NCBI RefSeq assembly: GCF_000427885.1
Contig: NZ_ATYW01000017.1
Location: 124,001 to 188,000 of the forward strand
Reading direction: 5' to 3'
From: Glycomyces tenuis DSM 44171
GTDB lineage: Bacteria > Actinomycetota > Actinomycetes > Mycobacteriales > Micromonosporaceae
Length of the DNA stretch: 64,000 nt
Below the pieces are notes generated by a model that saw only the letters and a program-made list of their open reading frames with translations, searched no databases and was not told where the DNA came from. Shown piece after piece: positions 2,018 to 16,036 of the stretch. Position numbers and translations under genes: made by a program. The first letter of the stretch is position 1, and every line of letters starts with the position of its first letter.

Positions 2018-2515
2018 TCAGCTGAGGTCGGGGCGCTCGCCCTCGGTGATGCGGCGGCGGCGTTCGACGTAGGCGGGCAGGATGGTCACGTCCTCGTCGG
2101 TGAACCAGTCGAAGGGCGCAGTGGAGGCGACAAGCGCGAAGTTCGCCCACGGCTCGAAGGAGCCCGAGCGGACGACGAGCTTGGCGCGCGGGGCCCACTG
2201 TTCGATGAGCGTCTCGTGCGTGGTGCCGTGGAAGACGGCCCCCGAGCCGGTGAAGCGGTCCTGGACCTCGCCGTAGAGGCGCGGGTGGTGCGTCTTCAGC
2301 TCGGTGGCGAAGTGGACCTCCTCGACGCAGACGGCGTCGAGGAGCGCCTGGAGCACGACGCGGACGTCGATCTGGCCGCGCGTGAGGGCCAGGTCGATCC
2401 GGTTCGCGTCGGCGGGGATGGGGAATCCGGCGTCGGTCACCAGGACCACGTCGGTGTGTCCGAGCGCGGCCAGGCCGCGGGCGAGCTCGGGGTGCAGGAT
2501 GGTGCCGTTTCTCAT
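2018..2515 (-). CDS. RbsD/FucU-family sugar mutarotase (pyranase)
   Basis: A 165-residue protein of the RbsD/FucU family, which interconverts anomers or pyranose/furanose forms of sugars such as ribose or fucose in the cytoplasm. The family N-terminus MRNGTILHPEL, the GHTD motif (catalytic His region) and the C-terminal VRSGSFEPWAN (family RTGE..PYAN) are visible. The ATG at 2515 overlaps the TGA of the upstream PfkB kinase gene by four bases (ATGA), so translation is coupled. Its place after an ABC importer, DeoC-like aldolase and sugar kinase says it prepares an imported monosaccharide for phosphorylation or oxidation. Ribose versus L-fucose specificity cannot be read directly. Confidence 0.85.
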   Translation of the reverse strand: MRNGTILHPELARGLAALGHTDVVLVTDAGFPIPADANRIDLALTRGQIDVRVVLQALLDAVCVEEVHFATELKTHHPRLYGEVQDRFTGSGAVFHGTTHETLIEQWAPRAKLVVRSGSFEPWANFALVASTAPFDWFTDEDVTILPAYVERRRRITEGERPDLS

Positions 2516-3471
2516 TGCCGCTCCAATGCGTTCGTCGGGTTCGTGCGGGCGAGGGCCGCCTCGACCGCGGCGCGGTCCTGATAGGAGGGGACGGTCTCCC
2601 AGTGCTCGCAGCACAGGCCCGCCGTCGCGTTCGCGAAGCGCGCCGCCTCGGGGAGGCTCCCGCCTTCGCCGAGCGCCACGGCCAGCGCGGCGTTGAAGCT
2701 GTCGCCGGCGCCGTTCGAGTCGACGACGGTGACGGGCACCGGCGGGACCGGCACGGCGCCCTCGGCGGTGGCGACCAGGGCGCCCGCTTCGCCGAGGGTG
2801 ATCACGACGGCCTTCGGGCCGAGCGCGAGGAGGCGGCGGGCCAGTGCCTCGGCGGGCGTGCCGTCGCCCGGTTCGAGGCCGAGGACGGTCTTCGCCTCGT
2901 GCTCGTTCGGCGTCAGCACGTCCACGCAGGACAGATCCACCTCGCGCAGGTCCGCCGCGGGAGCGGGGTTGAGGATCGTGGCCGCGCCGCCCCGCCGCGC
3001 GAGCGCGAGCGCGTGCAGGGCCGTCTCCAGGGGTGTCTCCAGTTGCGCGAGCGCCGCGTCGGCGGCGAGCAGCGCGTCGGCGCAGCGGTCGACGTCGGCG
3101 GGGACGAAGGCGGCGTTCGCACCCGGGTCGACGACGATGACGTTGCGGCCCACGGTGTCCTTGACGATGAAGCCGACGCCGGTCGGCCGGTCCGCGGTGG
3201 TGCGCAGGCGCTCGATGTTCACGCCTTCGTCCTCCATGAGCGCTTTGAACTCCTCGCCGTGGGCGTCGTCGCCGACGACGCCCAGATAGGACACCTCGGC
3301 GCCGAGGCGCGCGGCCTGGACGGCCATGTCGGAGCCCTTGCCGCCGAAGGTCTCCCGGTAGTCCCGGCCGATGAGGGTCTCGCCCGCCCCGGGGATCCGG
3401 TCGGCCGTCATGACCAGGGCCTTCGCGTAGCTGCCGACGACGGCGACCCTCGCGCGCGCGTCAGTAGGCAT
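2512..3471 (-). CDS. PfkB-family carbohydrate kinase (ribokinase-like)
   Basis: A 319-residue PfkB/ribokinase-family kinase that phosphorylates a sugar or sugar-acid with ATP. It has the N-terminal substrate motif GGKGSDMAVQAARLG (residues 43-57) and the C-terminal ATP/anion-hole motif SNGAGDSFNA with catalytic Asp at about 257. Length is typical. The start overlaps the end of the DeoC-like aldolase gene by 11 nt and the stop overlaps the RbsD-like start, giving a tightly coupled trio. Ribokinase is the nearest familiar function, but 2-keto-3-deoxy sugar-acid kinases share the fold and would suit the dehydratase in the same cluster. Confidence 0.85.
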   Translation of the reverse strand: MPTDARARVAVVGSYAKALVMTADRIPGAGETLIGRDYRETFGGKGSDMAVQAARLGAEVSYLGVVGDDAHGEEFKALMEDEGVNIERLRTTADRPTGVGFIVKDTVGRNVIVVDPGANAAFVPADVDRCADALLAADAALAQLETPLETALHALALARRGGAATILNPAPAADLREVDLSCVDVLTPNEHEAKTVLGLEPGDGTPAEALARRLLALGPKAVVITLGEAGALVATAEGAVPVPPVPVTVVDSNGAGDSFNAALAVALGEGGSLPEAARFANATAGLCCEHWETVPSYQDRAAVEAALARTNPTNALERQ

Positions 3472-4165
3472 CGGGGTCCCCCTCCAGGCCGTCGACGATC
3501 GCCGGGCCCGAGCTGGTGCCGACCAGTTCGGCCCCCGCGGCGAAGAGCGAGCGCATCTTCTCCAGCGTGTTGACCTTGCCGGAGACCTTGACCCGGCAGG
3601 GCGCCTCGATGTGCTCGGCGAGGATCCGCACGTCGTGCTCGGTGGCGGCCAGGCCGCCCCTGCCCCAGCCGGAGGACTGCTTGACCCAGTCGACGCCCGC
3701 CTCGTAGGCGATCCGGGTGGCCTTGGCCTTGAGCTCGTCGGTCTCCAGGAAACCGAACTCCAGCATGGCCTTGACCTTGATCCCCTCGCCGTGGGCGGCC
3801 TCGACGATCGCGGCGATGTCCTTCGCGTACAGCTCCTCGTCGCCGCCGAGCAGGAGCCCGGGGTGCGGCGGGAAGTCGAACTCGTCGACGCCGTCGGCCG
3901 CGAGCGCCTGCAAGGCCGCCAGGCGCATCGCGAGGGTGTCGTTCGCCATCGGGAAGTTCAGGGTCGAGGCGACTCTCACGCCGGTGCCGGACAGCGCCTC
4001 TTTGGCCAGGCGCACCCAGTACGGCGCGATCATGGCCGCGTCGAAGCCGTACTCGACGCAGGTCTCGAGGTGCTTGAGCAGCCCCGCCCGGGTCAGGTCC
4101 GGGTTGACGTTCGTGTACTGGATCGCCCCGGCGACCTGTCTGGGGTCGGTGAAGTCGGTGGTCAT
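3461..4165 (-). CDS. DeoC/LacD-type class I aldolase
   Basis: A 234-residue TIM-barrel aldolase of the DeoC/FbaB/LacD group, acting by Schiff-base chemistry. Candidate catalytic residues are Lys162 in WVKQSSGWG (Schiff-base lysine), Lys193 in RVKVSGK and Asp97 in EFDFPP. The loop PPHPGLLLGG differs from classical deoxyribose-phosphate aldolase, so the substrate is probably not deoxyribose-5-phosphate. It lies between the importer permease genes (58-nt gap after 4224) and the PfkB kinase gene. By context it should cleave a phosphorylated or keto-deoxy intermediate of the imported sugar. Confidence 0.75.
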   Translation of the reverse strand: MTTDFTDPRQVAGAIQYTNVNPDLTRAGLLKHLETCVEYGFDAAMIAPYWVRLAKEALSGTGVRVASTLNFPMANDTLAMRLAALQALAADGVDEFDFPPHPGLLLGGDEELYAKDIAAIVEAAHGEGIKVKAMLEFGFLETDELKAKATRIAYEAGVDWVKQSSGWGRGGLAATEHDVRILAEHIEAPCRVKVSGKVNTLEKMRSLFAAGAELVGTSSGPAIVDGLEGDPDAY

Positions 4166-4223: not shown

Positions 4224-5066
4224 TCAGCCCTTGACGGCGCCCGCCGAGAGGCCGCCCATGATGTGCCGCTGCATGACCACGAAGATCAGCAGGATCGGGG
4301 CGACGGCGAGCAGCAGGGTGGGAAAGACGATCTCGTAGTTCGTCGAGTAGGTGGACACCGCGGCGTACACGCCGGTCGTGATCGTGCGGAACTCCGAGCC
4401 GGGCCCGAGGATCAGCTGCGGGCTGACGAAGTCGTTCCAGGCGCCCAGGGCGTTGAGGATGAACGCGGTGGCGACGATCGGCCGCATGAGCGGGAAGATG
4501 ATCGTCCACAGGATGCGCTGGCGGCCCGCGCCGTCGATCGAGGCCGCCTCGTCCAGGGAGCGGGGCAGCATCCTGATGTAGGCGCTGAAGACGAACAGCG
4601 TGAACGGGATCATCGTCGCGGACATGAACAGGACCAGGCCCGGCAGCGTCCCCATCAGGCCGAGCGACTTCAGGACGAAGACCGCCGGGACGAGGATGAT
4701 CTGCGCGGGCACGAACATGCCCGCGACGAAGAACATCAGCAGAATCCTGAACAGGAGCTTGGGCGTGCGGGCGATGGCGTACGCGGCGGGGACCGCCGTC
4801 CCGATCGCGACGGCGTTGCACGCCAGGACCAGGAACAGCGAGACCGCGTAGCCCTCGACGACGGGGAAGCTCGTGCTCTGCCAGGCGGCCTCGAGGTACT
4901 CGGTGGACGCCGTCGCGAAGTCGATCCCGAGCGGGGACAGCAGGATCTCCTGCTGCGGCTTGAACGCGTTGACCACCATGATGTACATCGGCACGAGCAT
5001 GGCGGCCGAGAGCACCGCCACGACGGTGACGCGGGCGGCGGTGCGGAACGTGCGCTTGCTGGTCAT
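4224..5066 (-). CDS. Carbohydrate ABC transporter permease, MalG type
   Basis: A 280-residue inner-membrane permease with about six transmembrane helices. The binding-protein-dependent transport EAA loop is seen as SLDEAASIDGAGRQRILWTI, where the MalK-type ATPase docks, and the C-terminus RHIMGGLSAGAVKG is typical of MalG proteins. The ATG at 5066 overlaps the stop of the MalF-type gene (ATGA), so the two half-permeases are coupled. No ATPase gene is in the cluster; as usual in actinomycetes a shared MsiK-like ATPase elsewhere would energise it. Confidence 0.9.
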   Translation of the reverse strand: MTSKRTFRTAARVTVVAVLSAAMLVPMYIMVVNAFKPQQEILLSPLGIDFATASTEYLEAAWQSTSFPVVEGYAVSLFLVLACNAVAIGTAVPAAYAIARTPKLLFRILLMFFVAGMFVPAQIILVPAVFVLKSLGLMGTLPGLVLFMSATMIPFTLFVFSAYIRMLPRSLDEAASIDGAGRQRILWTIIFPLMRPIVATAFILNALGAWNDFVSPQLILGPGSEFRTITTGVYAAVSTYSTNYEIVFPTLLLAVAPILLIFVVMQRHIMGGLSAGAVKG

Positions 5067-5977
5067 CCGAGGCTCTCCGCTCCCTCTTCGGCGCGCCGGC
5101 GCAGCACGATGATCGTGAACGACAGGAGCCCGGCGACGAGGACGAGCAGGACCGCCTGCGCGCACGCGAGCCCGATGTCGTTGTTGGCGAAGGAGACCGC
5201 GAGGATCTCGTACGCCCAGTTCTGGGTGGCGTCGCCCGGCCCGCCGTTGGTCAGGCCGAGCACGACGTCGTAGACCTTCAGCAGCGAGAGCACGGTGGTC
5301 ACGAGCGTGACGGTCACGGTCGGCGCCAGCGCGGGCCATGTGACGTGCCGGAACACCTGGCCGCCGCCGGCGCCGTCGATCCTGGCCGACTCCTTCAGGT
5401 CCGGTGAGACCGCCTGGAGGCCGGCGAGGTAGAGGACGAGCTGCACGCCGAACTGCGCCCAGACGATCACCGCGATGAGCGTCGCCAGCGCCCACTGCGG
5501 GTCGGCCAGGAACGGCAGCGTGGACTGCCCCCAGCCTCCGAGGATGTTGTTCACCGCGCCCTGCGGCCCCAGGATCGCCTGCCACAGGAAGCCGACGATG
5601 AGGGCCGAGAGCACGTGCGGGTAGAACATCACGACGCGGGCGAAGGTGTTGAACGGCGTGGTGCGCCGCAGCAGCAGCGCGAGGCCGAGCGCGGCGGCGT
5701 TCACCAGGAGGGTGCCGACCACGGCGATCGCCACGGTGACCCAGACCGAGGGGTGCAGATCGCCGATGGGGTCGTCGGCGATCCGCCGGTAGTTCTCGAG
5801 GCCGACCCACGTCGGCGTCCGGCTCGGGAAGCCGTTGTAGTCGGTGAACGAGTAGTAGACGGCGAAGCCGACGGGCACGACCAGGAGTCCGACGTAGACG
5901 GCGAGCGCCGGCACCGTCAGCAGCCCGTTCGCGAAGGCGCCGGCGCGGGTCCGCCACGAGGTCGAGGTCCGGGGCAT
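5063..5977 (-). CDS. Carbohydrate ABC transporter permease, MalF type
   Basis: A 304-residue membrane permease of the sugar ABC importer. It begins with a basic segment and a first helix near residues 15-40, and carries the EAA-loop motif DLKESARIDGAGGGQVFRHV. The ATG at 5977 lies one base after the TGA of the binding-protein gene; a GTG 12 nt upstream is an alternative start. The stop overlaps the MalG-type start. It forms the channel with the gene at 4224 and receives substrate from the lipoprotein at 5979. Confidence 0.9.
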   Translation of the reverse strand: MPRTSTSWRTRAGAFANGLLTVPALAVYVGLLVVPVGFAVYYSFTDYNGFPSRTPTWVGLENYRRIADDPIGDLHPSVWVTVAIAVVGTLLVNAAALGLALLLRRTTPFNTFARVVMFYPHVLSALIVGFLWQAILGPQGAVNNILGGWGQSTLPFLADPQWALATLIAVIVWAQFGVQLVLYLAGLQAVSPDLKESARIDGAGGGQVFRHVTWPALAPTVTVTLVTTVLSLLKVYDVVLGLTNGGPGDATQNWAYEILAVSFANNDIGLACAQAVLLVLVAGLLSFTIIVLRRRAEEGAESLG

Positions 5978-5978
5978 G

Positions 5979-7244
5979 TCAGCCGGCACTCTCCGCCTCG
6001 TACCAGGCGGTGAGGTCGGCGGCGACGTCGGCGGGGTCGGCGCCCTGCCACAGGCTCTGGACGAGCTCGGTGAACTTGGGGTTGAACCCGGCCACCGGCA
6101 GCGCGTAGTCGCCGACGGTCTGGTTGCCCGGCACGACGAACGACGGCGCCTGGTCGGCGACCTCCTGGACGGCCGAGGCGTACTCGTTGCCGCTGGTGTC
6201 CAGGCCCTCGCGGGTGAAGTGGTCCATCTCGGCCTGCGTGGCGATCGCCTCCGCGTCGGTCACGAGGTACTCGACGAGCGCGGTGGCGTCGTCGACCTTC
6301 TCGGTGCCGTTCCACACCATGTACGGGTAGGCCATGGTGGCGCCCATGGGGCCGGGGGCGTCGGCGGCGGCGTCGACGGGCGCCGAGAAGACGCCCACTT
6401 CGAAGTCCGGCGGCGAGGCGGCCAGCGTCGTGGTGAACCAGGAGCCCATCGGGTAGATCCCGACCTCGCCGGCGATGAAGTTCGCCTCCTGGGTGCCCGA
6501 GTCGGTCGCCACGTCGTCGGCGGTCGTGTAGCCGGCGTCGATCCACTCGGAGAGGTGCTCGAACAGCGGCTCGAATTGCTCGCCGAGGCTCGAGGAGCCG
6601 TCGGCGACGCTCTGCTGCCAGCCGGGGGCGGCGACGTTCTGCTGGGGGTGCCAGATCTGCTGGGCCTGCACGCCGGTGGCCCATTCGGAGGCGAAGGCGA
6701 TGGGGGTGGCCACGCCGGCGCCGTCGAGGGCGGCGAGGGCGGCGTCGAGTTCGTCCCAGGTCTGGGGCGGCTCGGTGACGCCGGCCTGCTCGAACAGGTC
6801 GGCGTTGTAGTACAGCAGCGACTGGGGCTGCATGCCGACGCCGACGACATTGATCTCGCCGTCGGTGGCGTACAGGTCCGCCATCGGCGTCCCGGAGGCC
6901 CACTCGTACTCGGTGAGGTCGAGGATCTCGGGGGCGGTGTCCTCTGAGGGGAAGATCGACTGGATGACGTCGGGGGCCGTCCCGGCGGCCAGGAGCGAGG
7001 GGAAGGACTCGGCGACCGACTGGCCGGTGGGGCCCTCGATCTCGACGTCGATCCCGGTCTCGTCCTCGAAGGGCTTGACGAGCGCTTCCCACTTCTCCTG
7101 CGTGAGGTTGTCGGTGATGTTCACGAGCATGCGCACCGAGTCGCTGTCGGAGCCGCCGCCGGAGCCGCAGGCCGTGAGCGCGAGGACCGGGGCGAAGCCG
7201 AGGATGACGGCGCCGCGGGTGCGGCGCCGGAGCGGAGTTGACAT
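5979..7244 (-). CDS. Sugar ABC transporter substrate-binding lipoprotein
   Basis: A 421-residue extracellular solute-binding protein (family 1, CUT1 type). The basic N-terminus and hydrophobic core end in lipobox LTAC (residues 23-26), so Cys26 is the likely lipid anchor. The body has the expected PFEDETGIDVE, LLAAGTAPDVIQ and LLYYNADLFEQAGV blocks. The ATG at 7244 is preceded by GGGAG. The same reading frame continues upstream without a stop into the preceding enzyme gene, but the signal peptide, ribosome site and a dedicated promoter at 7301-7330 show that this is a separate start. It captures the sugar and passes it to the permeases encoded just downstream. Confidence 0.88.
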   Translation of the reverse strand: MSTPLRRRTRGAVILGFAPVLALTACGSGGGSDSDSVRMLVNITDNLTQEKWEALVKPFEDETGIDVEIEGPTGQSVAESFPSLLAAGTAPDVIQSIFPSEDTAPEILDLTEYEWASGTPMADLYATDGEINVVGVGMQPQSLLYYNADLFEQAGVTEPPQTWDELDAALAALDGAGVATPIAFASEWATGVQAQQIWHPQQNVAAPGWQQSVADGSSSLGEQFEPLFEHLSEWIDAGYTTADDVATDSGTQEANFIAGEVGIYPMGSWFTTTLAASPPDFEVGVFSAPVDAAADAPGPMGATMAYPYMVWNGTEKVDDATALVEYLVTDAEAIATQAEMDHFTREGLDTSGNEYASAVQEVADQAPSFVVPGNQTVGDYALPVAGFNPKFTELVQSLWQGADPADVAADLTAWYEAESAG

Positions 7245-8810
7245 CGTTGTCTCCCAACCTTGGTCCGAGTCGCCTCCACCCGGAGGACGACTACTTGTAA
7301 TACATACTACATGTGCTAAGTCATGGTCAAGTGTGCGGTCAGCCTCGCGCACGTGCCCCCGGTAGGGGATCGCGCCGAGGACCGAGACGTCGGTCGCGCG
7401 CGCCGAGTCGTCGAGGCGCCAGATCCCCTCGTCGGCGACGAAGAAGACCGGCGCCTCGTCGAATGCGAGCTCGGCGGGCAGCGGCTCCTTGTCCGTCCAG
7501 GCGAAGAAGGACCGCGCGAAGTCGTCGCGGTCCTTGCGGCCGTAGATGCTGAGGTCTCCGGCCGTCAGCGGGCTGAGGATGCACCAGTGGACGCCGTCCT
7601 CGACCCAGTAGGCGCGGTCGGAGAGCAGGACGGACCGCCGCTCCGGCTCGGCGAACACCACGTCCCAGAACGACTCGGCCCAGAAGGACTCGGCGGTGTC
7701 GTAGTGCCGCACGAGGAACAGCAGGTCGTGGGCGTGCCAGGCGGTGCTCGGGGCGACGTCCGCCTCGTTGTGCCAGCCGGTGGCGGAGGCGAAGTACCCG
7801 GCGGGGGTCTGGTACGCGGCGTAGGTGGCCAGGCAGTCCTCGACGAAGGCCGCGAGCTCGGGGTGCTCGGTCTCGGAGAGGACCTCGTCGATGCCGTAGA
7901 GGCTCAGGCCCATGCCCGCGATGAGCATCGGCTCGGTGGTCTTCAGGGCCGTCTCGCCGCGCACGTACCAGTAGCGGTGGAAGCGGGTGCGGCCCCGCTC
8001 GTCCGTCCAGGCCGAGCGCGCGACGTGGAGGCTCAGGCGGACCGCCTCGTCGAGCAGGTCCGGGCGGGCGAAGCGCCGCGAGCCGATCACGAGCGGCACG
8101 ATCATCAGCCCGTAGTACTCGGCCGGTTCGAGGATGCCGCCCTCGGCGCGGTCGGCGGGCTGCCGGTAGGCCCCGCAGCTCGCCGCGTCGGGGACGCCGG
8201 GGGCGCGGCTGAGCCGGACGAGGGCGTCGAGGTCGTCCTCCAGCTCGTGGGCGTAGCGGTCGTCCCCCGACAGCTCGGTGTACCTGAACTTCGCCCAGAC
8301 GCGGGCGTACTCCTGGTTCACGGTCCCGTCCTCGCTCGGGCGCCCGCCGCCGTAGACGCGGCACGCCTCGAGGTTCGCGCGGACGGCCCGCAGGACCTCC
8401 TCGGCCTCGCCGGGCTCCAGGAGGTGCCCGGCGTGGCGCAGGCCCTCCAGGAGGCCGATGCACCCGGCCATGTTGTGGATGAGCCCGGAGGTGGCCGACT
8501 CGCCGACCTGGAAGCCGATGTGGCGGAACTGGCCGTCGCCTTGGACCGTGCGCGCCTGGAACAGCATCATGCGGCGCCACATCTCGCGGGCCCGGTCGTC
8601 GGGCCGCCTGGCGAGGGCCTGGGCGAACGCCGCGGTCGCCGGGGCCGAGAACGCCTGGTGCCCGCTGGTGAAGTCGATGAACGTGGCGGGGTTGGTGCCC
8701 CACACGCTGTGGTTGTGGAAGCCCCGGATCTGGCCTTGGGCGCCGATCCAGGTGCGCATCCACCGGGCGAGCGCGGCCGTGTCCGGTGCGGGGGCCTCGT
8801 GCGTGCTCAT
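7245..8810 (-). CDS. Uncharacterised putative carbohydrate-active protein; ORF lacks its own stop
   Basis: I do not recognise the family with confidence. The ATG at 8810 overlaps the stop of the aldo/keto reductase gene (ATGA). The roughly 500-residue product is rich in Trp, His and Tyr helices (WMRTWIGAQGQIRGFHNHSVWG, QEYARVWAKFRYTEL, YFASATGWHNEADVAPSTAWH) and looks like an alpha/alpha-barrel carbohydrate enzyme, probably cytoplasmic as no signal peptide is seen. No in-frame stop occurs before the binding-protein start at 7244, so the frame runs on to 5979. A one-base insertion at the run of five C at 7356-7360 would end it at the TGA at 7339-7341 as IPYRGARARG. A sequencing indel, natural frameshift or real fusion are all possible. 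Confidence 0.6.
7294..7330 (-). promoter_or_regulatory. Promoter with overlapping imperfect palindrome upstream of the binding-protein gene
   Basis: Read on the minus strand, TTGACC (7330-7325) is followed after 18 nt by TATGTA (7306-7301), a good sigma-70-type promoter about 57 bp before the ATG at 7244. A 20-bp imperfect palindrome at 7294-7313 (CTTGTAATA...TACTACATG, 14 of 20 positions symmetric) covers the -10 box, the expected position for a repressor site. The FadR-type protein at 12131 is the obvious candidate regulator. Confidence 0.6.
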
Positions 8811-9802
8811 GTCGTGCTCCTTCCCGTGTGCGCCTCGTCGAGTGCCGGGACGAGGCCGAGGCGGTCGAGTTCGTCCCAGAGCGCTTGCGGCACTTCGCGT
8901 GCGATGCGTTCGGCGTTGGCCGTGACGTGGTCGGCGGTGCGCATGCCGGCGACGACCGAGGCCACCGCGCCGTGCCGCAGCGCGAACTGCGCGGCGAGTT
9001 CGGGGACGGTGACGCCGTACGGCTCGGCGGCGTCGGCGATCCGGTGGACCAGGGCGGCGAGCTCCGAAGGCACCCGCCGGTAGTCGAAGCGGGCGTCCGC
9101 GGCGGGGCGCGGCTCGGCGAGGAGCCCGGAGTTGTAGACGGCCGCGGCGACCACCGCGACCCCGCGGTCGAGCGCGGCGGGCAGGAGGTCGGCGAGGGCG
9201 CCCCGGTCGACGAGGGTGAACCGGCCCGCGCACATGACGACGTCGATGTCGGTCTCGCGGACGAAGCGGGCGGGCATCGCCGACTGGTTCATGCCCACGC
9301 CGATCGCCGAGACGACGCCCTGCTCGCGCAGTTCCACGAGGGCCTGGACGCCGCCGGTGGACGCCTCGTCCCAGTGCTCGTCGGGGTCGTGCAGGTAGAC
9401 GATGTCGATCCGGTCGGTGCCGAGCCGTTCGAGGCTGCCCTCCAGGGACCGGAGGATGCCGTCCCTGGAGAAGTCCCATTCCCGGCGGAAGGCGGCGGGG
9501 ACGGCGAAGCCGCCGTCGTCTCGCAGGTGCGCGCGCTCGGGCGTCGGCACGAGCAGGCGCCCGACCTTGGTCGACAGGACGTACTCGTCCCGGGGCCGCC
9601 CGGCCAGGACCGCGCCGAGGCGCCGCTCGGAGAGGCCGAGCCCGTAGTGCGGGGCGGTGTCGAAGTACCTGACGCCTGCGTCCCAGGCGGCGTCGACGGC
9701 GCCGCTGGCCTCCGCTTCGGTGGTCTCGCGGTAGAGGTTGCCCAGCTGCGCGGCGCCGAAACCGAGCTCGGTCAGCCTGGTGCCGGTTCGCAGTTCACGC
9801 AT
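8807..9802 (-). CDS. Aldo/keto reductase, L-fucose/aldose 1-dehydrogenase-like
   Basis: A 331-residue aldo/keto reductase that would oxidise an aldose at C1, or reduce an aldehyde, with NAD(P). Family marks are FDTAPHYGLGLSE (Asp and Tyr of the tetrad), STKVGR (Lys) and YLHDPDEHWDEA (His). The LTELGFGAAQLGNLYRE start and long central insert resemble the D-threo-aldose or L-fucose dehydrogenase subgroup. The ATG at 9802 overlaps the end of the hydroxyacid dehydrogenase gene by 8 nt and its own stop overlaps the next start. Together with a dehydratase it suggests an oxidative, non-phosphorylating first step of sugar breakdown. Confidence 0.82.
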   Translation of the reverse strand: MRELRTGTRLTELGFGAAQLGNLYRETTEAEASGAVDAAWDAGVRYFDTAPHYGLGLSERRLGAVLAGRPRDEYVLSTKVGRLLVPTPERAHLRDDGGFAVPAAFRREWDFSRDGILRSLEGSLERLGTDRIDIVYLHDPDEHWDEASTGGVQALVELREQGVVSAIGVGMNQSAMPARFVRETDIDVVMCAGRFTLVDRGALADLLPAALDRGVAVVAAAVYNSGLLAEPRPAADARFDYRRVPSELAALVHRIADAAEPYGVTVPELAAQFALRHGAVASVVAGMRTADHVTANAERIAREVPQALWDELDRLGLVPALDEAHTGRSTT

Positions 9803-10805
9803 GCCCGGGCCCTCCCAGGTCTTCGGGGCAGGCGAAGGGGAGCCCGGCCGCGAAGCGCTCGACTTCGGCGGCGACCGAGTCGCCGATGCGGTGCAGCTCG
9901 CGGCCGATCGAGCCGGCTATGTGCGGGGTGAGCACGACGTTCGGCAGGGTCCACAGTTCACTGTCCGGGGAGGGCGGTTCGGGCTCGGTGACGTCGAGGA
10001 CCGCTTCGATGCGGCCGGTGCGCAGTTCGGCGACGAGCGCGGCCTCGTCGACGACGGCGCCGCGCGCGGTGTTGATCAGCGTCGCCCCGTCGGGCATGAG
10101 CGCCAGGACGCGCGCGTCGATCTGGCCGACGGTCTCCGGCAGCAGCGGCTGGTGCAGTGAGAGCACGTCGCTCTGCGCCGCGACCTCGTCGAGGCCCGCT
10201 GTGCGCACGCCGAGCGCCGCGGCGTCCTCGGGCCCCAGCTCGGGGCTGTAGACGACGACGTCGAGTGCGAAGGGGCGCAGGAGCTCGATGAGGCGGCGCC
10301 CGACCTGCGAGGCGCCGACGATGCCGACGGTGCGGCGGTAGTTGCCCGCGTCGCTCGGGCGCTCGGGCATGCGGCGGTGCTCGCGGTACTCGCGTTCGAG
10401 CGGACGGGCCCGCTTGTTGGCCAACAGGATCTGGGCGAGCGTGTACTCGGCGACCGGGGCGGCGTTGACGGCGCGCGCGTTCGAGGCCCGCACGCCGCGC
10501 GCGGCGTGCTCGGCCGGGTCGGCCAGGCAGGTGGCGGCGACGCCGCCCGCGTAGACGACGGCGCGCAGCCGGGGGACGAGCGGGGGCGGAATGCGGGGTG
10601 CTCCCCAGCCCGCCAGCAGCACTTCGGCCTCGGCGAGGAGCGCGCGGTCCCGCTCGGAGCCGGTGTCGGTGACGACCCGCTCGGTGTCGACGTCCAGCAG
10701 CGCCGAGATCCGGTCGAGCGCCTGCGGGGTGAAGACCTGTCCGATCAGGTCCGCCGGCCGGAAGGACAGGGCCGCCCGGGGCCTGCGGGTCTCGGCGGCG
10801 CTCAT
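9795..10805 (-). CDS. D-2-hydroxyacid dehydrogenase family protein
   Basis: A 336-residue NAD-dependent 2-hydroxyacid dehydrogenase. It shows the dinucleotide-binding GIVGASQVGRRLIELL segment, the conserved INTARGAVVDEAALV block with catalytic Arg, and LTPHIAGS with the catalytic His; the Glu of the triad lies in VTEPEPP. GASQVG departs from the usual GxGxxG in its first half. The ATG at 10805 overlaps the stop of the enolase-superfamily gene. Its role is probably to interconvert a keto acid and hydroxy acid made by the dehydratase/aldolase branch. Confidence 0.85.
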   Translation of the reverse strand: MSAAETRRPRAALSFRPADLIGQVFTPQALDRISALLDVDTERVVTDTGSERDRALLAEAEVLLAGWGAPRIPPPLVPRLRAVVYAGGVAATCLADPAEHAARGVRASNARAVNAAPVAEYTLAQILLANKRARPLEREYREHRRMPERPSDAGNYRRTVGIVGASQVGRRLIELLRPFALDVVVYSPELGPEDAAALGVRTAGLDEVAAQSDVLSLHQPLLPETVGQIDARVLALMPDGATLINTARGAVVDEAALVAELRTGRIEAVLDVTEPEPPSPDSELWTLPNVVLTPHIAGSIGRELHRIGDSVAAEVERFAAGLPFACPEDLGGPGHA

Positions 10806-11974
10806 GCGCTGCCGCCCTCCTCGGCTCCGGCGCGGCGGTGCCGCGACGCGAGCCGCAGGCCCGCGTCGGGCGGGCGCACGTGCGGGCCCGCGGCGTCCCC
10901 CCAGGTGCCCGCGCCGCGCTGCGCGGCGATGTGCGCCTCGTCGACCTCGATGCCGAGGCCGGGCGCGTCGCCGAGCCGGATGCCGCCGTCGGCGATCTCC
11001 TGGTCGGCGCTGAGGCCGACCGGCAGCGCGAGGTCCTGGAGCTCGGTGGCGAGGTGGTTGGGGACGGCGGCGGCCGCGTGCGCCAGCGGGTTGGCGTTGT
11101 ACGCGACCGGGCTGACGGGCAGGTCGCGGCCGAGCGCGAGGACCGACACGCGCAGGAAGTGGGTGATGCCCCAGACGCTTCCGGCCTGGACGACGCCGAG
11201 GGCGTCGGCGGCGAGCAGGTGCCGGTACTGCTCGAGGCCGGTGAGGTTCTCGCCGCTGGCGACCGCCGAGCGGACGCCCGCGGCGACGGCCCGGTGCCCT
11301 TCGACGTCCCAGCGCCGCACCGGCTCCTCGATCCAGGTGAGGTCGACCTGCTCCTCGACGCGGCGGGCGAGCCGGACGGCCTGGTGGCGGCCCCACGCCT
11401 CGTTGACGTCGTACATCACCGCAGGCCGCTCGGCGTTGACGCGCAGGACGTCGCGCACGGCGACCAGGCGCTTGGCGTCCCGGTCGACGTCGAGGCCGCC
11501 CTTGACCTTCGCGCCGGTGAAGCCGCGTTCGGCCCAGCGCTCGTAGAGGCCGACGAGCGCGTCGTCGTCGAGCGCGTACTCCAGGCCCGAGGCGTAGCCG
11601 GGGACGAAGCGGTCGGCCGCGCCGAGGGTGCGCCACAGCGGTTCGCCGGCCATCTTCGCCTTGAGGTCCCACAGGGCCATGTCGAGGGCGCCGATGGTGC
11701 CGAAGGCCGCGCCGTTGTGCCCGGTCTTGAACACGAAGGCGAGCATGCGGTCGTACAGGGCGGTCACGGCGCGCGGGTCGCGGCCCTCCAGGGCCGGGAA
11801 GACGCGGTCGACGTCGGCGTTCGAGCCGAGGCCGACGCCGGTCAGGCCGCCGTCGGTCTCGAGCAGCACGATCGGGACCTCCGTGACGCCGTCGGCGATG
11901 ACGCCGTTGACGTCGCCCACTGGGCGCCCCCATCGGTGGACCGTGGTCAGGCTCCGATACCCGGTGATTCGCAT
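10802..11974 (-). CDS. Mandelate racemase/enolase-superfamily sugar-acid dehydratase
   Basis: A 390-residue enolase-superfamily protein, probably removing water from an aldonic acid. The AKVKGG motif gives catalytic Lys156-x-Lys158; the three metal ligands appear as Asp189 (YDVNEAW), Glu216 (WIEEP) and Glu242 (GENLTG). The usual Asp after the third ligand is replaced (VVQAGSVWGITH), so the His-Asp dyad of classical mandelate racemase or fuconate dehydratase looks absent or altered. The ATG at 11974 with GGAG just upstream was chosen over an upstream ATG at 12025 that adds 17 unlikely residues. It is the first gene of the cluster, divergent from the FadR-type regulator. Confidence 0.85.
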   Translation of the reverse strand: MRITGYRSLTTVHRWGRPVGDVNGVIADGVTEVPIVLLETDGGLTGVGLGSNADVDRVFPALEGRDPRAVTALYDRMLAFVFKTGHNGAAFGTIGALDMALWDLKAKMAGEPLWRTLGAADRFVPGYASGLEYALDDDALVGLYERWAERGFTGAKVKGGLDVDRDAKRLVAVRDVLRVNAERPAVMYDVNEAWGRHQAVRLARRVEEQVDLTWIEEPVRRWDVEGHRAVAAGVRSAVASGENLTGLEQYRHLLAADALGVVQAGSVWGITHFLRVSVLALGRDLPVSPVAYNANPLAHAAAAVPNHLATELQDLALPVGLSADQEIADGGIRLGDAPGLGIEVDEAHIAAQRGAGTWGDAAGPHVRPPDAGLRLASRHRRAGAEEGGSA

Positions 11975-12028
11975 CGTGCTCCAGATCAGCGTCGCGATAG
12001 CATGCTCGCAGGCTTCCGCCAGCATGTC

Positions 12029-12085
12029 ACTTATAACTTATGATACGACTGAAGATAACACATCACTCGGCTACACTTGGCCGAG
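12029..12085. promoter_or_regulatory. AT-rich divergent promoter region with repeats, between dehydratase and FadR-type regulator
   Basis: This pocket has a direct repeat ACTTAT-ACTTAT (12029-12034 and 12036-12041). On the minus strand TATAAG (about 12035-12030) could be the -10 of the dehydratase operon. An inverted repeat CTCGGC-8 nt-GCCGAG sits at 12066-12085, before the regulator start. TTATAAGT on the minus strand resembles TTACAAGT in the palindrome at 7294. These are candidate operator elements; no exact shared site is proven. Confidence 0.4.
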
Positions 12086-12130
12086 CGGCGGAGTCCCGTC
12101 TGCCAGTACACCAATGGAGTCCTCGACGAC

Positions 12131-12883
12131 ATGAACCCGACACACGCGCCCGGCGGTGAGGTGCCCCGCCCCCAACGTCACCGGCCTCCGCTCGCCGCGG
12201 CGGTCGTCCAGAGCCTGGTGCGGGCGATCGTCGTCGGAGAGCACGCCCCCGGCTCGGCCCTGCCGACCGCCGGAGAGCTGTGCGAGGAGTACCAGGTGAG
12301 CCGGACCGTCATCCGCGAGGCCACGACGACCCTGGCCGAGAAGGGCCTCGTCGCGCCCCGGCAGGGCTGGGGCACGGTGGTGCTCGACCAAGACCAGTGG
12401 AACCTGTTGGACCCCTTGGTCCTCGACGCGCTCTTCCAGCGCGAGGACCGGCTGTTCTATCTCGACAACCTCATCGAGGTCAGGGCGAACCTGGAGTGCG
12501 CCATGGCCGCTCGGGCGGCGAGCCGCCTCGACGACGCCCAGCGCTCGGCGCTCACGGCGAAGCTCAAGGAGCTCGGCGAGTTCATGGGCGATCCCGTGGC
12601 GTACTCGCGGGCCGACGTGGAGTTCCACGAGCTGATCCACCGCGCCTCGCAGGACGCCTTCGGCCGGGCGATCGTGGCGAACATCCAGGGCAAGGCGCTC
12701 CACACGCCCCAGTACAGCGGGCACCCGACCCCCGAGGACATCGAGGTGACCCACGAGGGCCACACGGCGATCCTCGCGGCCCTGCTCCTCGGCGACGCCG
12801 ACCGCGCCGCCCACGAGATGCGCGAGCACATCACCTCCTCGTGGGCGAGACGCCGCCCCAGCGAAGCGCCGCCCGTGGCCTGA
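12131..12883 (+). CDS. GntR/FadR-family transcriptional regulator
   Basis: A 250-residue FadR-type repressor. The N-terminal winged helix includes VQSLVRAIVVGEHAPGSALPTAGELCEEYQVSRTVIREA, and is followed by an all-helical FCD ligand domain with metal-binding-type Asp/His residues (FHELIHRAS, EGHTAIL, REHI). It is divergent from the eleven-gene minus-strand sugar cluster. FCD regulators of such clusters usually bind an aldonate or keto-acid intermediate, which fits the dehydratase next door. The ATG at 12131 was chosen over a TTG at 12077 because the added residues lie in the promoter region. Confidence 0.9.
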   Translation: MNPTHAPGGEVPRPQRHRPPLAAAVVQSLVRAIVVGEHAPGSALPTAGELCEEYQVSRTVIREATTTLAEKGLVAPRQGWGTVVLDQDQWNLLDPLVLDALFQREDRLFYLDNLIEVRANLECAMAARAASRLDDAQRSALTAKLKELGEFMGDPVAYSRADVEFHELIHRASQDAFGRAIVANIQGKALHTPQYSGHPTPEDIEVTHEGHTAILAALLLGDADRAAHEMREHITSSWARRRPSEAPPVA

Positions 12884-13082: not shown

Positions 13083-13424
13083 TTGCCTGAGATCAGAATT
13101 GAAGTCGACGGACAACCTGGTGACACTGCAGATCTCTTCGAGGAGCTGCGGTCCGCCCGGATCCATCCGGGTGTCGAGATCAAGGCCGTATCGAACCGCG
13201 ATGGAACGCTGGGCCCCTTCGACGCGGTCCTCGCCGTCGTCAACTCGCTCGCCGCGGTCGGGAGTCTGGTGGTCGCCGTCCTGCAATGGAAGACCCCGTC
13301 CGGCCCCAAGGTCCGCATCGAACTCGGCGAAGGCAAGTCGATCGTCATCGAGAACGCCGACGCGGACACCGTCGAACGCATCTGGAAGCTCATCGAGCCG
13401 CCCGAGGAAGACGACCTGAGGTGA
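13083..13424 (+). CDS. EACC1-like small effector-associated protein
   Basis: A 113-residue protein that matches the EACC1 (effector-associated constant component 1) pattern known from actinobacterial conflict systems: a short IRIEVDG start, a central hydrophobic segment at about residues 45-69 (VLAVVNSLAAVGSLVVAVLQ) that could cross or touch the membrane, and a C-terminal VRIELGEGKSIVIENAD strand region. TTG at 13083 is preferred because GAGG lies at a good distance upstream; GTG at 13074 would overlap that site. Its TGA overlaps the GTG of the caspase gene (GTGA), so the two are made together. The family assignment is by pattern and context, not by a search. Confidence 0.72.
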   Translation: MPEIRIEVDGQPGDTADLFEELRSARIHPGVEIKAVSNRDGTLGPFDAVLAVVNSLAAVGSLVVAVLQWKTPSGPKVRIELGEGKSIVIENADADTVERIWKLIEPPEEDDLR

Positions 13425-16036
13425 CCCCGTCGGCGGTCCCTGTGCCTGAGGGATCACAGGTCGTGCTGATCGGGGTGTCCGAATACGACGACCCGGCCCT
13501 GCACTCCTACGACGCCTTGGCAAACGGTGTCGAGGAGCTGGCGCGCCTGCTCAAGGACCCCCGGATCCTCGGCGTCCCGGACGGCAACTGCCATGTCATC
13601 ACCGGGGCCGAGGCGACTAGAGACCGCATCCACCGCACGCTCACCGACGCCGCCGAGCGCACGACCTCGCTGCTGTTCGTCTACTTCGCCGGGCACGGCC
13701 ACTGGAGCAGACGGGAGCACCCCACCCGGCTCACGCTCGCGCACAAGCAGGTCGAGCACGACGACTTCCTCGACTGGATGCCCTTCGAGTGGCTGCGCGG
13801 CCATCTCGCGCGCGGCCGGAGCCCACGCGCGAAACACCGCGTGCTGGTCATGGAGACCTGCCACAGCGGTGCCGCACTGGAGCATGGGACGCTCGCCGGT
13901 GCCGGCACCTGGGTCGACGACGACCGCAGCGATCTCTCCACGATCCTGACCGCCTGCGACAAGGCGGAGACGGCGCGGGTCGTGGACGGGGAGCCGTATC
14001 CGCTGTTCGCCTCCGCCCTCATCGACGTGCTCCGAAGCGGCATCGAGGGCAAGGGCGGCTTCCTCACCCCCGACGAGATCTGCGACGCGATCCGCGCCGA
14101 GATCGGCGATGTCCAGACGCCTCGGCTCGTGTGCGCCGACGGCGCGGGCGCCCAGCCGCTGTTCGGCAACCGGCGGGCGGCCGCGCCCGCGGCGGTCGTT
14201 CCGGGGAAGTCGACGATCCCGCCCCTCGCGAACCCGCTGTTCGGACACAGAGAGCAGGTCGAACGCCTGCTGGAGGGCGCCAGGAGCGCCGCTGAGGACG
14301 CCGGGCCGTTCATCGGCGTGATCACCGGCAAGGGCGGCTACGGGAAGTCCCTGCTGGCCCATGCGGTCGCCGCCGAGCTGGGCACGGCCTTCGCGTGGCG
14401 CCTCCATCTCGACCTGCGCGCCTCGGAGCTCGCACGGACCGAAGTGGACTCCTTGGTCATGCTCAGGGAGCTGCTGATCCAGTCCGGGCAGACACCGCCG
14501 AACTGCCTGGCGTCGAGCCGGAGCCGCTGGACCAACTGGCTCGCCGAGCACCGGGTGCTCCTCGTGCTCGACAACGTCGCCGACGCCCGCCAGATCGAGG
14601 CCGCGATGCCGCCCGCCGACTCGCGGTGCGCGGTCCTCGCCACCAGTCGCGATCCGCTCAGGGGCCTGCCGTCCGCGACCACGATCGAACTGGGCCCGCT
14701 CGGCCGGACCGACGCCGTCGCGCTCCTGCGCCACCACGTCGGCGACCGGTGCAGCGAGAGCGAACTCGTCGCCCTCGCGGCCGAGGCGTGCGGCGTGCCC
14801 GCGGTCCTCCACGCCCTCGGCGGGCAACTGGAGTACCAGCCGCCGCGGATCCTGCTCGAACGGATGCGCCGCTCCGGAAGCGGGGTGATGAAGGAGATCT
14901 TCCGCAGCACCGTGGCGAACCTCGAGCCGGACGCACTGCGCCGGACCGCGCTCGCCTGCGGCCTCCACCCCGGGCCGAGCTTCGACCCCGACTCGATCGC
15001 GGCCATGACCGGCGCGGACGGCGACGACACCTGGGACCACTGCCACTCCCTGTCGGTGCGTCGCATCCTCAAGCCGCTGCCGGGCTACCGGTACCGCCTC
15101 CATGACGAGGACCGGGCCTTCGCCCCGGCGGTCGCCGCGGCCCTCGGCCCCGACACGGCCGAGCACGCCGGGGACCGGCTGTGGGACTGGACGGCGAGAC
15201 GGGTCGACGCCGCGGTGTCGCAGCTGTGGGGAAGCGAGCGCCCGTCAGCGCCCGCCGAGCCCGATCGGCGGATCGGGTTCGCCGAGCCGCACGAGGCGGA
15301 GCACTGGCTCTCGCGCGCCAGTGACGAGCTGCTCGTCAGCGGCCGCCTGGCGCTGCGCCGACGGCACGAACGCGGACTGCGCATGGCCGCCGCCTACACG
15401 CGCTGGCTCCGCCTGCGCGGCAGGTTCGAGCCGGCGGCCGGACTCCTCAACGAACTCAAGTCCGTTCCCGGCGACGAAAGCGCCATCGCCGCCTCGCTGG
15501 GGCTCGGCGACATGGCGCGGCTCCAGGGCGAAGACGCCCGCTCAGAGCGGTTCTTCCACCGCGCGATCGCGATCGCCGTGTCCATAGACGACGTCCGGAG
15601 CCAGGTCCGGGCGCTCGACGGGCTCGGGGGCGTCGCGCGACTGCGGGCCCAGCACGATAAAGCGAGGGGCTACTTCGACCGCGCGCTCGATCTGGCGGAG
15701 TCGATCGGCGACCTCCCCGGCCAGGGGCACGCGCTGTGGGGTCTCGGCGTCGTCTTCGGCGGCCAGGGCGAGTGGGATACGGCGGCCGAGCAGTTCGACT
15801 CCGCGATGAGGACGGCCCGGCGGGTCGGCGACCGCATCGGCGAGGCCAGCGCCCAATGGGGCATGGGCCAAACGCTCAAGGCGATCGGCAACCGCGAGGG
15901 CGCCAAGCACGCGTTCCGCTCGGCGAGGCGGCTCTACGCCAAAGTCGGCTGGACCGACTGGGCCGCCAACTGCGAGGAGGTGCTCGCGCAGATGGACGCG
16001 GGCTCGACCGTCCTCTGGTGGGGCATCAGCGCCTGA
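13421..16036 (+). CDS. Caspase-like protease/NB-ARC ATPase/TPR protein (predicted conflict or cell-death effector)
   Basis: An 871-residue multidomain protein. Residues about 10-250 form a caspase/metacaspase (C14) domain with the dyad His92 in YFAGHGHW and Cys147 in METCHSG. Residues about 270-560 form a STAND/NB-ARC ATPase: Walker A GKGGYGKS (303-310), Walker B VLLVLD (379-384), sensor ATSRDP (407-412), GVPAVL and an MHD-like RLHDEDRAF motif before a winged-helix part. The last third holds TPR-like repeats (for example RSQVRALDGLGGVARL and GQGHALWGLGVVFGG). Family knowledge suggests the TPRs sense a trigger, the ATPase oligomerises and the protease is unleashed to harm the cell or cut targets. 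The gene is coupled to the EACC1-like gene. No neighbouring protease substrate is evident. Confidence 0.88.
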   Translation: MTPSAVPVPEGSQVVLIGVSEYDDPALHSYDALANGVEELARLLKDPRILGVPDGNCHVITGAEATRDRIHRTLTDAAERTTSLLFVYFAGHGHWSRREHPTRLTLAHKQVEHDDFLDWMPFEWLRGHLARGRSPRAKHRVLVMETCHSGAALEHGTLAGAGTWVDDDRSDLSTILTACDKAETARVVDGEPYPLFASALIDVLRSGIEGKGGFLTPDEICDAIRAEIGDVQTPRLVCADGAGAQPLFGNRRAAAPAAVVPGKSTIPPLANPLFGHREQVERLLEGARSAAEDAGPFIGVITGKGGYGKSLLAHAVAAELGTAFAWRLHLDLRASELARTEVDSLVMLRELLIQSGQTPPNCLASSRSRWTNWLAEHRVLLVLDNVADARQIEAAMPPADSRCAVLATSRDPLRGLPSATTIELGPLGRTDAVALLRHHVGDRCSESELVALAAEACGVPAVLHALGGQLEYQPPRILLERMRRSGSGVMKEIFRSTVANLEPDALRRTALACGLHPGPSFDPDSIAAMTGADGDDTWDHCHSLSVRRILKPLPGYRYRLHDEDRAFAPAVAAALGPDTAEHAGDRLWDWTARRVDAAVSQLWGSERPSAPAEPDRRIGFAEPHEAEHWLSRASDELLVSGRLALRRRHERGLRMAAAYTRWLRLRGRFEPAAGLLNELKSVPGDESAIAASLGLGDMARLQGEDARSERFFHRAIAIAVSIDDVRSQVRALDGLGGVARLRAQHDKARGYFDRALDLAESIGDLPGQGHALWGLGVVFGGQGEWDTAAEQFDSAMRTARRVGDRIGEASAQWGMGQTLKAIGNREGAKHAFRSARRLYAKVGWTDWAANCEEVLAQMDAGSTVLWWGISA

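Follow-up and report, generated by a model that had tools for sequence, protein, structure and literature searches.

Probable loss of an enzyme stop codon in a Glycomyces tenuis operon, with a chance in-frame run into the neighbouring lipoprotein gene

When the gene for an operon enzyme shows no stop codon at its expected end, and its reading frame continues without a break through the whole of the following gene, is one looking at a fused protein, at an error in the sequence record, or at a mutation that the organism has simply tolerated? This question is raised by a locus of the soil actinobacterium Glycomyces tenuis DSM 44171, within a stretch of 64,000 nucleotides that we refer to as the window. 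On the minus strand, the frame that begins at ATG 8810 is uninterrupted as far as the TGA at 5981-5979, as an earlier note on this DNA had said, and translates into 943 residues; it is composed of a 490-residue enzyme, a 32-residue linker and a complete solute-binding protein (SBP) of the lipoprotein type. The description of the downstream partner as a lipoprotein with a signal peptide was equally borne out. Namely, the SBP matches PF01547 at 1.1e-27, as well as PF13416, carries the lipobox LTAC with its cysteine at residue 26, and has an ATG of its own at 7244-7242, which is codon 523 of the long frame. At the opposite end, the aldo/keto reductase gene runs into the enzyme gene, so that bases 8807-8810, with the enzyme ATG, are common to both.

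The features of the locus are collected in Table 1. Judging from the predicted gene products, the operon would serve to take up and degrade a sugar or a sugar acid. Each of its ten proteins, like the GntR regulator, can be aligned in one frame with the corresponding stretch of Glycomyces arizonensis (L056), in some cases short of the last residues, and across these eleven proteins the stretch thus shows no other frame error. In the 17,001 bases of the Glycomyces buryatensis stretch (L057), no match was found for the DeoC, PfkB and RbsD proteins of the window, and the downstream end of the operon therefore differs between species. Past the regulator of the operon, at 13286-16036 on the plus strand, lies the gene for a large protein in which a caspase-like domain (PF00656) is combined with an NB-ARC NTPase and TPR repeats; it may act in defence or cell death, as a bacterial caspase-STAND protein.

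Table 1. Genes and sequence elements around the stop-less enzyme gene, in window coordinates.
Feature	Coordinates	Strand	Evidence or remark
RbsD/FucU mutarotase	2018..2614	-	
PfkB sugar kinase, ribokinase-like	2512..3471	-	best NCBIfam match below cut-off
DeoC aldolase	3461..4165	-	TIGR00126 above cut-off; PF01791
ABC permease 2 (BPD_transp_1)	4224..5066	-	
ABC permease 1 (BPD_transp_1)	5063..5989	-	
SBP, ABC-transporter solute-binding lipoprotein, 421 aa, lipobox LTAC	5979..7244	-	Pfam, lipobox
Shine-Dalgarno-like GGGAG and SBP ATG	7242..7257	-	conserved
Read-through linker, 32 codons, residues 491-522	7245..7340	-	the control-region DNA of the SBP gene
Possible 5'-leader hairpin AGTCGtCCTCC-GGGT-GGAGGCGACT	7268..7292	-	single-sequence folds
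Operator-like imperfect dyad, 22 bp, ACATGTAGTATGTATTACAAGT	7293..7314	-	8/11 pairs symmetric; -10-like TAGTAT
Lost-stop site, codons 490-491	7338..7343	-	window GCT GAC; L023 GCG TGA; L022 GCG CGG
Enzyme gene, residues 1-490 (to PYRGHVREA)	7341..8810	-	portion matching whole homologues; model; fold matches
Aldo/keto reductase	8807..9802	-	
D-2-hydroxyacid dehydrogenase	9795..10799	-	
Enolase-superfamily sugar-acid dehydratase-like (MR_MLE)	10802..12025	-	
Weak operator-like site ACTTATAACTTATGATACGACT	12029..12050	.	between operon and regulator; PSSM 11.4; identical 22 bases at the same place in L056
GntR/FCD regulator (FadR subfamily), divergent	12077..12883	+	FCD 3.1e-23, GntR 4.1e-16; also in L056, L057

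Where, then, do the relatives of the enzyme end? A scan with one genome per species yielded 31 loci that encode such relatives, and a sample of the phylum, in which 2 of 396 genomes matched (G. tenuis itself included), contributed one further locus, for a total of 32. The 32 include one fragment (L052) and many closely related Streptomyces loci that do not count as independent. In 31 of the 32, a stop codon lies between -1 and 9 residues past the equivalent of residue 487, the valine of PYRGHV. The sole exception is the locus of the sister species G. arizonensis (L022), where the frame ends 58 residues past residue 487. Within the genus, the enzyme is present in 3 of 22 genomes, that of G. tenuis included: G. 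buryatensis has the normal stop, which is missing from both the window and G. arizonensis. In addition, the extension in the window aligns with the spacer that precedes the SBP gene in nine relatives whose enzyme gene stops normally, i.e., it is made of DNA that is noncoding in those relatives.

The position of the loss can be narrowed down by comparison with Promicromonospora (L023), in which GHV is followed by RDA and then TGA, where the window (its letters in the 7330-7350 region are GAGGCTGACC) reads REA. Because the window matches through GHVREA where L023 has GHVRDA and a stop, it is the stop itself, at 7343-7338, that appears to have been lost. What is more, the distance from GHV to the operator-like dyad is 35 bases in both the window and L022, with no in-frame stop along it in either, and for this reason no single base is missing from the window relative to its sister. 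Around the stop-loss site the two differ at 7 of 22 bases, as counted by eye, and the absence of the stop in both may reflect either one common loss or two separate ones. Taken from the aligned sequences, the loss of the stop in the window looks biological.

The earlier note had raised the possibility of an indel upstream of this point, at the five-C run at 7356-7360. A one-base shift at that run would lead to a TGA, at 7341-7339, but no such shift is required, and 31 of the 32 related loci continue in the frame of the window beyond this place. In other words, the homologues hold their frame past the run, and the shifted tail, ARARG, occurs in none of the C-termini printed. Neither did the alignment of homologous C-termini make the stop-less tail a natural end of the protein, as 31 of the 32 loci stop near GHV. 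The indel at the C run is accordingly replaced, as the cause, by the loss of the stop codon, an event of a kind already known, namely a stop-loss extension.

Is the part of the protein that precedes the lost stop still an enzyme under constraint? Over 485 codons, dN is 0.069 and dS 0.261 in comparison with L022, and 0.103 and 0.514 in comparison with L036 (calculated with Biopython by YN00 or its NG86 fallback). These values argue for an enzyme that is still under purifying selection and therefore apparently tolerant of its extension. The AlphaFold2 model of the enzyme has a mean pLDDT of 85.5 and is predicted to consist of an (alpha/alpha)6 barrel, which we take to be the proper name for the fold of the GH76, AGE and GH127 families, followed by a C-terminal beta-rich part. 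Residues ~5-376 superimpose on (alpha/alpha)6 barrels with Z of 21.9-26.9 and rmsd of 3.2-4.1 over 275-345 aligned residues, at 7-14% identity, among the best 50 rows. The top match, 7tem, reaches Z 26.9 and rmsd 3.4 with 328 residues aligned over residues 9-376, and GH76 mannanases and cellobiose 2-epimerases (Z ~22-25) as well as a drimenyl diphosphate synthase (Z ~23) are among the fold matches. Foldseek placed a GH127 structure first by E-value (5.0e-06), at an rmsd of 15.8; the GH127 alignments have rmsd of ~14-19. The predicted enzyme therefore shares the barrel fold with GH76 mannanases, AGE/cellobiose 2-epimerases and GH127, but differs from them in that identity is as low as given above and that it matches no Pfam family at 1e-3.

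In contrast to the clear fold, other searches for a family assignment gave little. Against the GH127 family the enzyme scored 11.7 bits (E 0.13) with a cut-off of 24.9; a PDB sequence search with a 24-row profile returned no match at E up to 1; and the window enzyme came near no NCBIfam cut-off among the matches listed. Membership in TIGR02284 was considered and rejected: 12 of the 24 alignment members match it weakly (best E 0.0036), and the window enzyme has 14.8 bits vs a cut-off of 44.8. The enzyme is probably one of sugar metabolism. Its family is sparse in actinobacteria, as seen in the phylum sample (2 of 396 genomes, own included), and HNHSVWGTNP, NQEYARVW, RFHRYWY and TAWHAHD are its conserved stretches.

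What kind of DNA does the frame cross once it has passed the lost stop? When the 32 loci were scanned without a forced pattern, the operator-like 22-mer was found with 0-2 mismatches in nine loci and with 5 in L028, always between the enzyme and the SBP; in the other 22 loci the best place had at least 7 mismatches and was not counted as a match. Its 19-bp core is present as a single copy in the genome within 3 mismatches. In ten relatives, which were chosen after the comparison of C-termini, all with an SBP identity of 75% or more and nine with a normal enzyme stop, the spacer follows the pattern ACATGTAG.ATGTAT.ACAAGT with small changes, then the leader and GGGAGACAACGATGTC or nearly so; in L028, the left half of the operator has diverged and the leader is short. 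One of the motif matches used a pattern that fixes several bases, and the alignment and the scan of the 32 loci were unforced. In particular, both the operator and the SBP start are kept in the nine relatives in which the enzyme stops normally.

The most economical reading of these comparisons is that the read-through likely crosses an internal operator or promoter, and that this likely element is the reason why the spacer sequence is conserved. The spacer had been called promoter-bearing, a description that its conservation across species supports but a scan for the sigma-70 consensus, with 0 sites, does not; a terminator scan gave nothing. In single-sequence folds of 11 loci, ten form a leader stem, with z from -1.0 to -3.6, and L028 forms none (z 0.7). 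The consensus fold of ten aligned leaders gave essentially no stem (-0.18), and for this reason the hairpin stays only possible.

Which protein might bind here? A candidate, proposed on sequence grounds, is the GntR/FCD protein encoded at 12077-12883. In the accessible text of PMC4494728 (compare PMC2230225), the operators of FadR-subfamily GntR proteins follow the pattern TKGT-N3-ACMA, which the spacer sequence TTGT-AAT-ACAT fits, by eye, at 7 of 8 defined bases. The likeness extends to the arrangement, as the FCD/GntR gene points away from the operon, and the locus thus combines a site of the TKGT-N3-ACMA type with a linked FCD/GntR gene. The conserved stretch is longer here, with 22 bp, than the pattern given in that text, and the site is a putative one, derived from sequence. 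In the scoring by position-specific matrix (PSSM), the main site reaches 43.8 but belonged to the training set, and the site at 12029 (11.4) ranks below another one at 1792 (16.1). The latter, ACATGTATGACATGTTAAGAAT at 1792-1813 of the window, lies beyond the operon end, with a similar site in L056 at 2430, and could belong to a further gene controlled by this regulator. Similar elements are also present at 1667 and 4385 in the G. buryatensis stretch, next to the GntR gene and ahead of the enolase-like gene, and they lend support to one regulator of the operon.

How special is it that the frame reaches the SBP in phase? Downstream of the lost stop, the window and L022 differ by two bases, CTCCG--GG vs CTCCGCTCC, in what would be the loop of the possible hairpin, and therefore the tail is in the SBP frame in the window only and out of frame in L022, where it ends 69 bases inside the SBP gene in a different frame. 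The fused enzyme-SBP frame is accordingly found in 1 of 33 loci, the window and its 32 relatives, and this one is the window. Among 20,000 dinucleotide shuffles, the 99-base spacer frame was open in 20.9%, or ~7% if the match with the SBP frame is counted as well. Given the loss of the stop, the merger is thus mildly unusual and no more; the missing stop is the unusual part, and the linker is probably open in frame by chance. When the 86 codons that end with residue 488 are compared between the window and L022, codon positions 1, 2 and 3 show 3, 6 and 12 differences, respectively; over the following 22 codons of the tail the counts are 3, 3 and 5. Coding constraint on the linker was considered and set aside, the latter differences being too few over 22 codons and the DNA being conserved also outside the enzyme frame.

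We consider it probable that the locus reflects a mutational loss of the stop with a chance in-frame run into the SBP gene, i.e., a tolerated accident and not an established fusion, and we favour this reading because the sister species does not share the fused frame and the linker consists of regulatory DNA. From the sequences compared, the accident was probably recent and neutral. Of the three options that the earlier note had left side by side, an assembly error, a programmed or mutational frameshift and a real readthrough fusion, what stands is a mutational event, in the form of a stop loss with a potential fusion frame, and what lacks support is a functional fusion protein. As for an error of sequencing or assembly, i.e., a real in-frame stop in a record that is off by one base, it draws on the TGA found, shifted by one base from the frame, where the homologues have their stop, and on the single assembly of the species. 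Mistakes can recur between assemblies, too: in its accessible part, PMC4494051 describes a putative gene fusion that was traced to replicated assembly errors. Against this, the sister species, in a separate genome record, is also without the stop and has the same 35-base spacing to the operator, the eleven syntenic proteins show no other frame break relative to L056, and the homologues do not diverge at the C run; we therefore disfavour an error and regard it as unlikely.

Far less probable still is that the merger is translated and useful. In a functional fusion, the internal signal would act as a membrane anchor, with the enzyme on the inner and the SBP on the outer side, and one could imagine such a chimaera beside free SBP, coupling uptake to catabolism and caught at birth, a scenario to which we give very little weight; on the equally improbable extension of it, the sister species would represent the state that is stop-less but out of frame. 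The open frame, the completeness of the SBP with its signal peptide and lipobox, and the presence of enzyme and SBP in one sugar operon are in its favour. However, the fused frame is not conserved between species, being out of frame in L022 and closed by a stop in the other 31 loci, the linker is regulatory DNA that lies outside the enzyme frame in nine relatives, the SBP retains a ribosome-binding site and start of its own, and the frame could open by chance as often as the shuffles indicate. The least probable explanation, and one that we regard as barely credible, is programmed -1 frameshifting at a G run, by which ribosomes would reach the TGA at 7341-7339. A run of five G does precede this TGA in the -1 frame, but the homologues terminate past GHV without leaving frame 0, L022 and L023 both have CGC GGC in place of the run, and the shifted tail is absent from the C-termini printed, so that neither a conserved slippery site nor shifted-frame homologues were found. 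The suggestion of a programmed frameshift is to be dropped on these grounds.

On the reading of a tolerated loss of the stop, a mutation at 7343-7338 would have removed the stop codon of the enzyme, and the frame would then traverse the SBP control region, reaching the SBP start in frame by chance. Ribosomes on transcripts begun upstream of the operon would continue and produce an enzyme-linker-SBP chain, with a calculated mass of 102.5 kDa. As conservation suggests, the SBP would still be initiated at its own conserved start, whether the message is the long one or a shorter one that arises from the internal promoter, probably under GntR control. The internal signal sequence might anchor the fused chain, with the enzyme inside.

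Compared with known systems, the closest parallel is found in a study of yeast and Drosophila (PMC4494051), which, in its accessible part, describes recent stop losses that add noncoding DNA to the C-terminus of a protein. The present case resembles it in that noncoding DNA has been joined to an existing C-terminus by a recent loss of the stop, and differs in that it takes place in a bacterial operon, that the next gene is reached in frame and that the added DNA is regulatory. The prokaryotic frame transitions collected by GeneTack, as far as described in the accessible text of PMC3711429, likewise concern odd reading frames, including clusters of pseudogenes and of recoding; here, in contrast, the frame is continuous and no change of frame is needed. 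In a literature search on stop loss, gene fusion and Glycomyces, no title among the matches listed dealt with this locus.

What does the finding mean? It offers a clean natural example of a bacterial gene that loses its stop and starts merging with its neighbour through regulatory DNA, with a sister species that is without the same stop and yet misses the SBP frame. In practical terms, gene calling at such a locus may yield a spurious enzyme-SBP fusion or misplace the start of the SBP. If, finally, the fusion were made, it would represent an unusual route to the membrane tethering of an enzyme.
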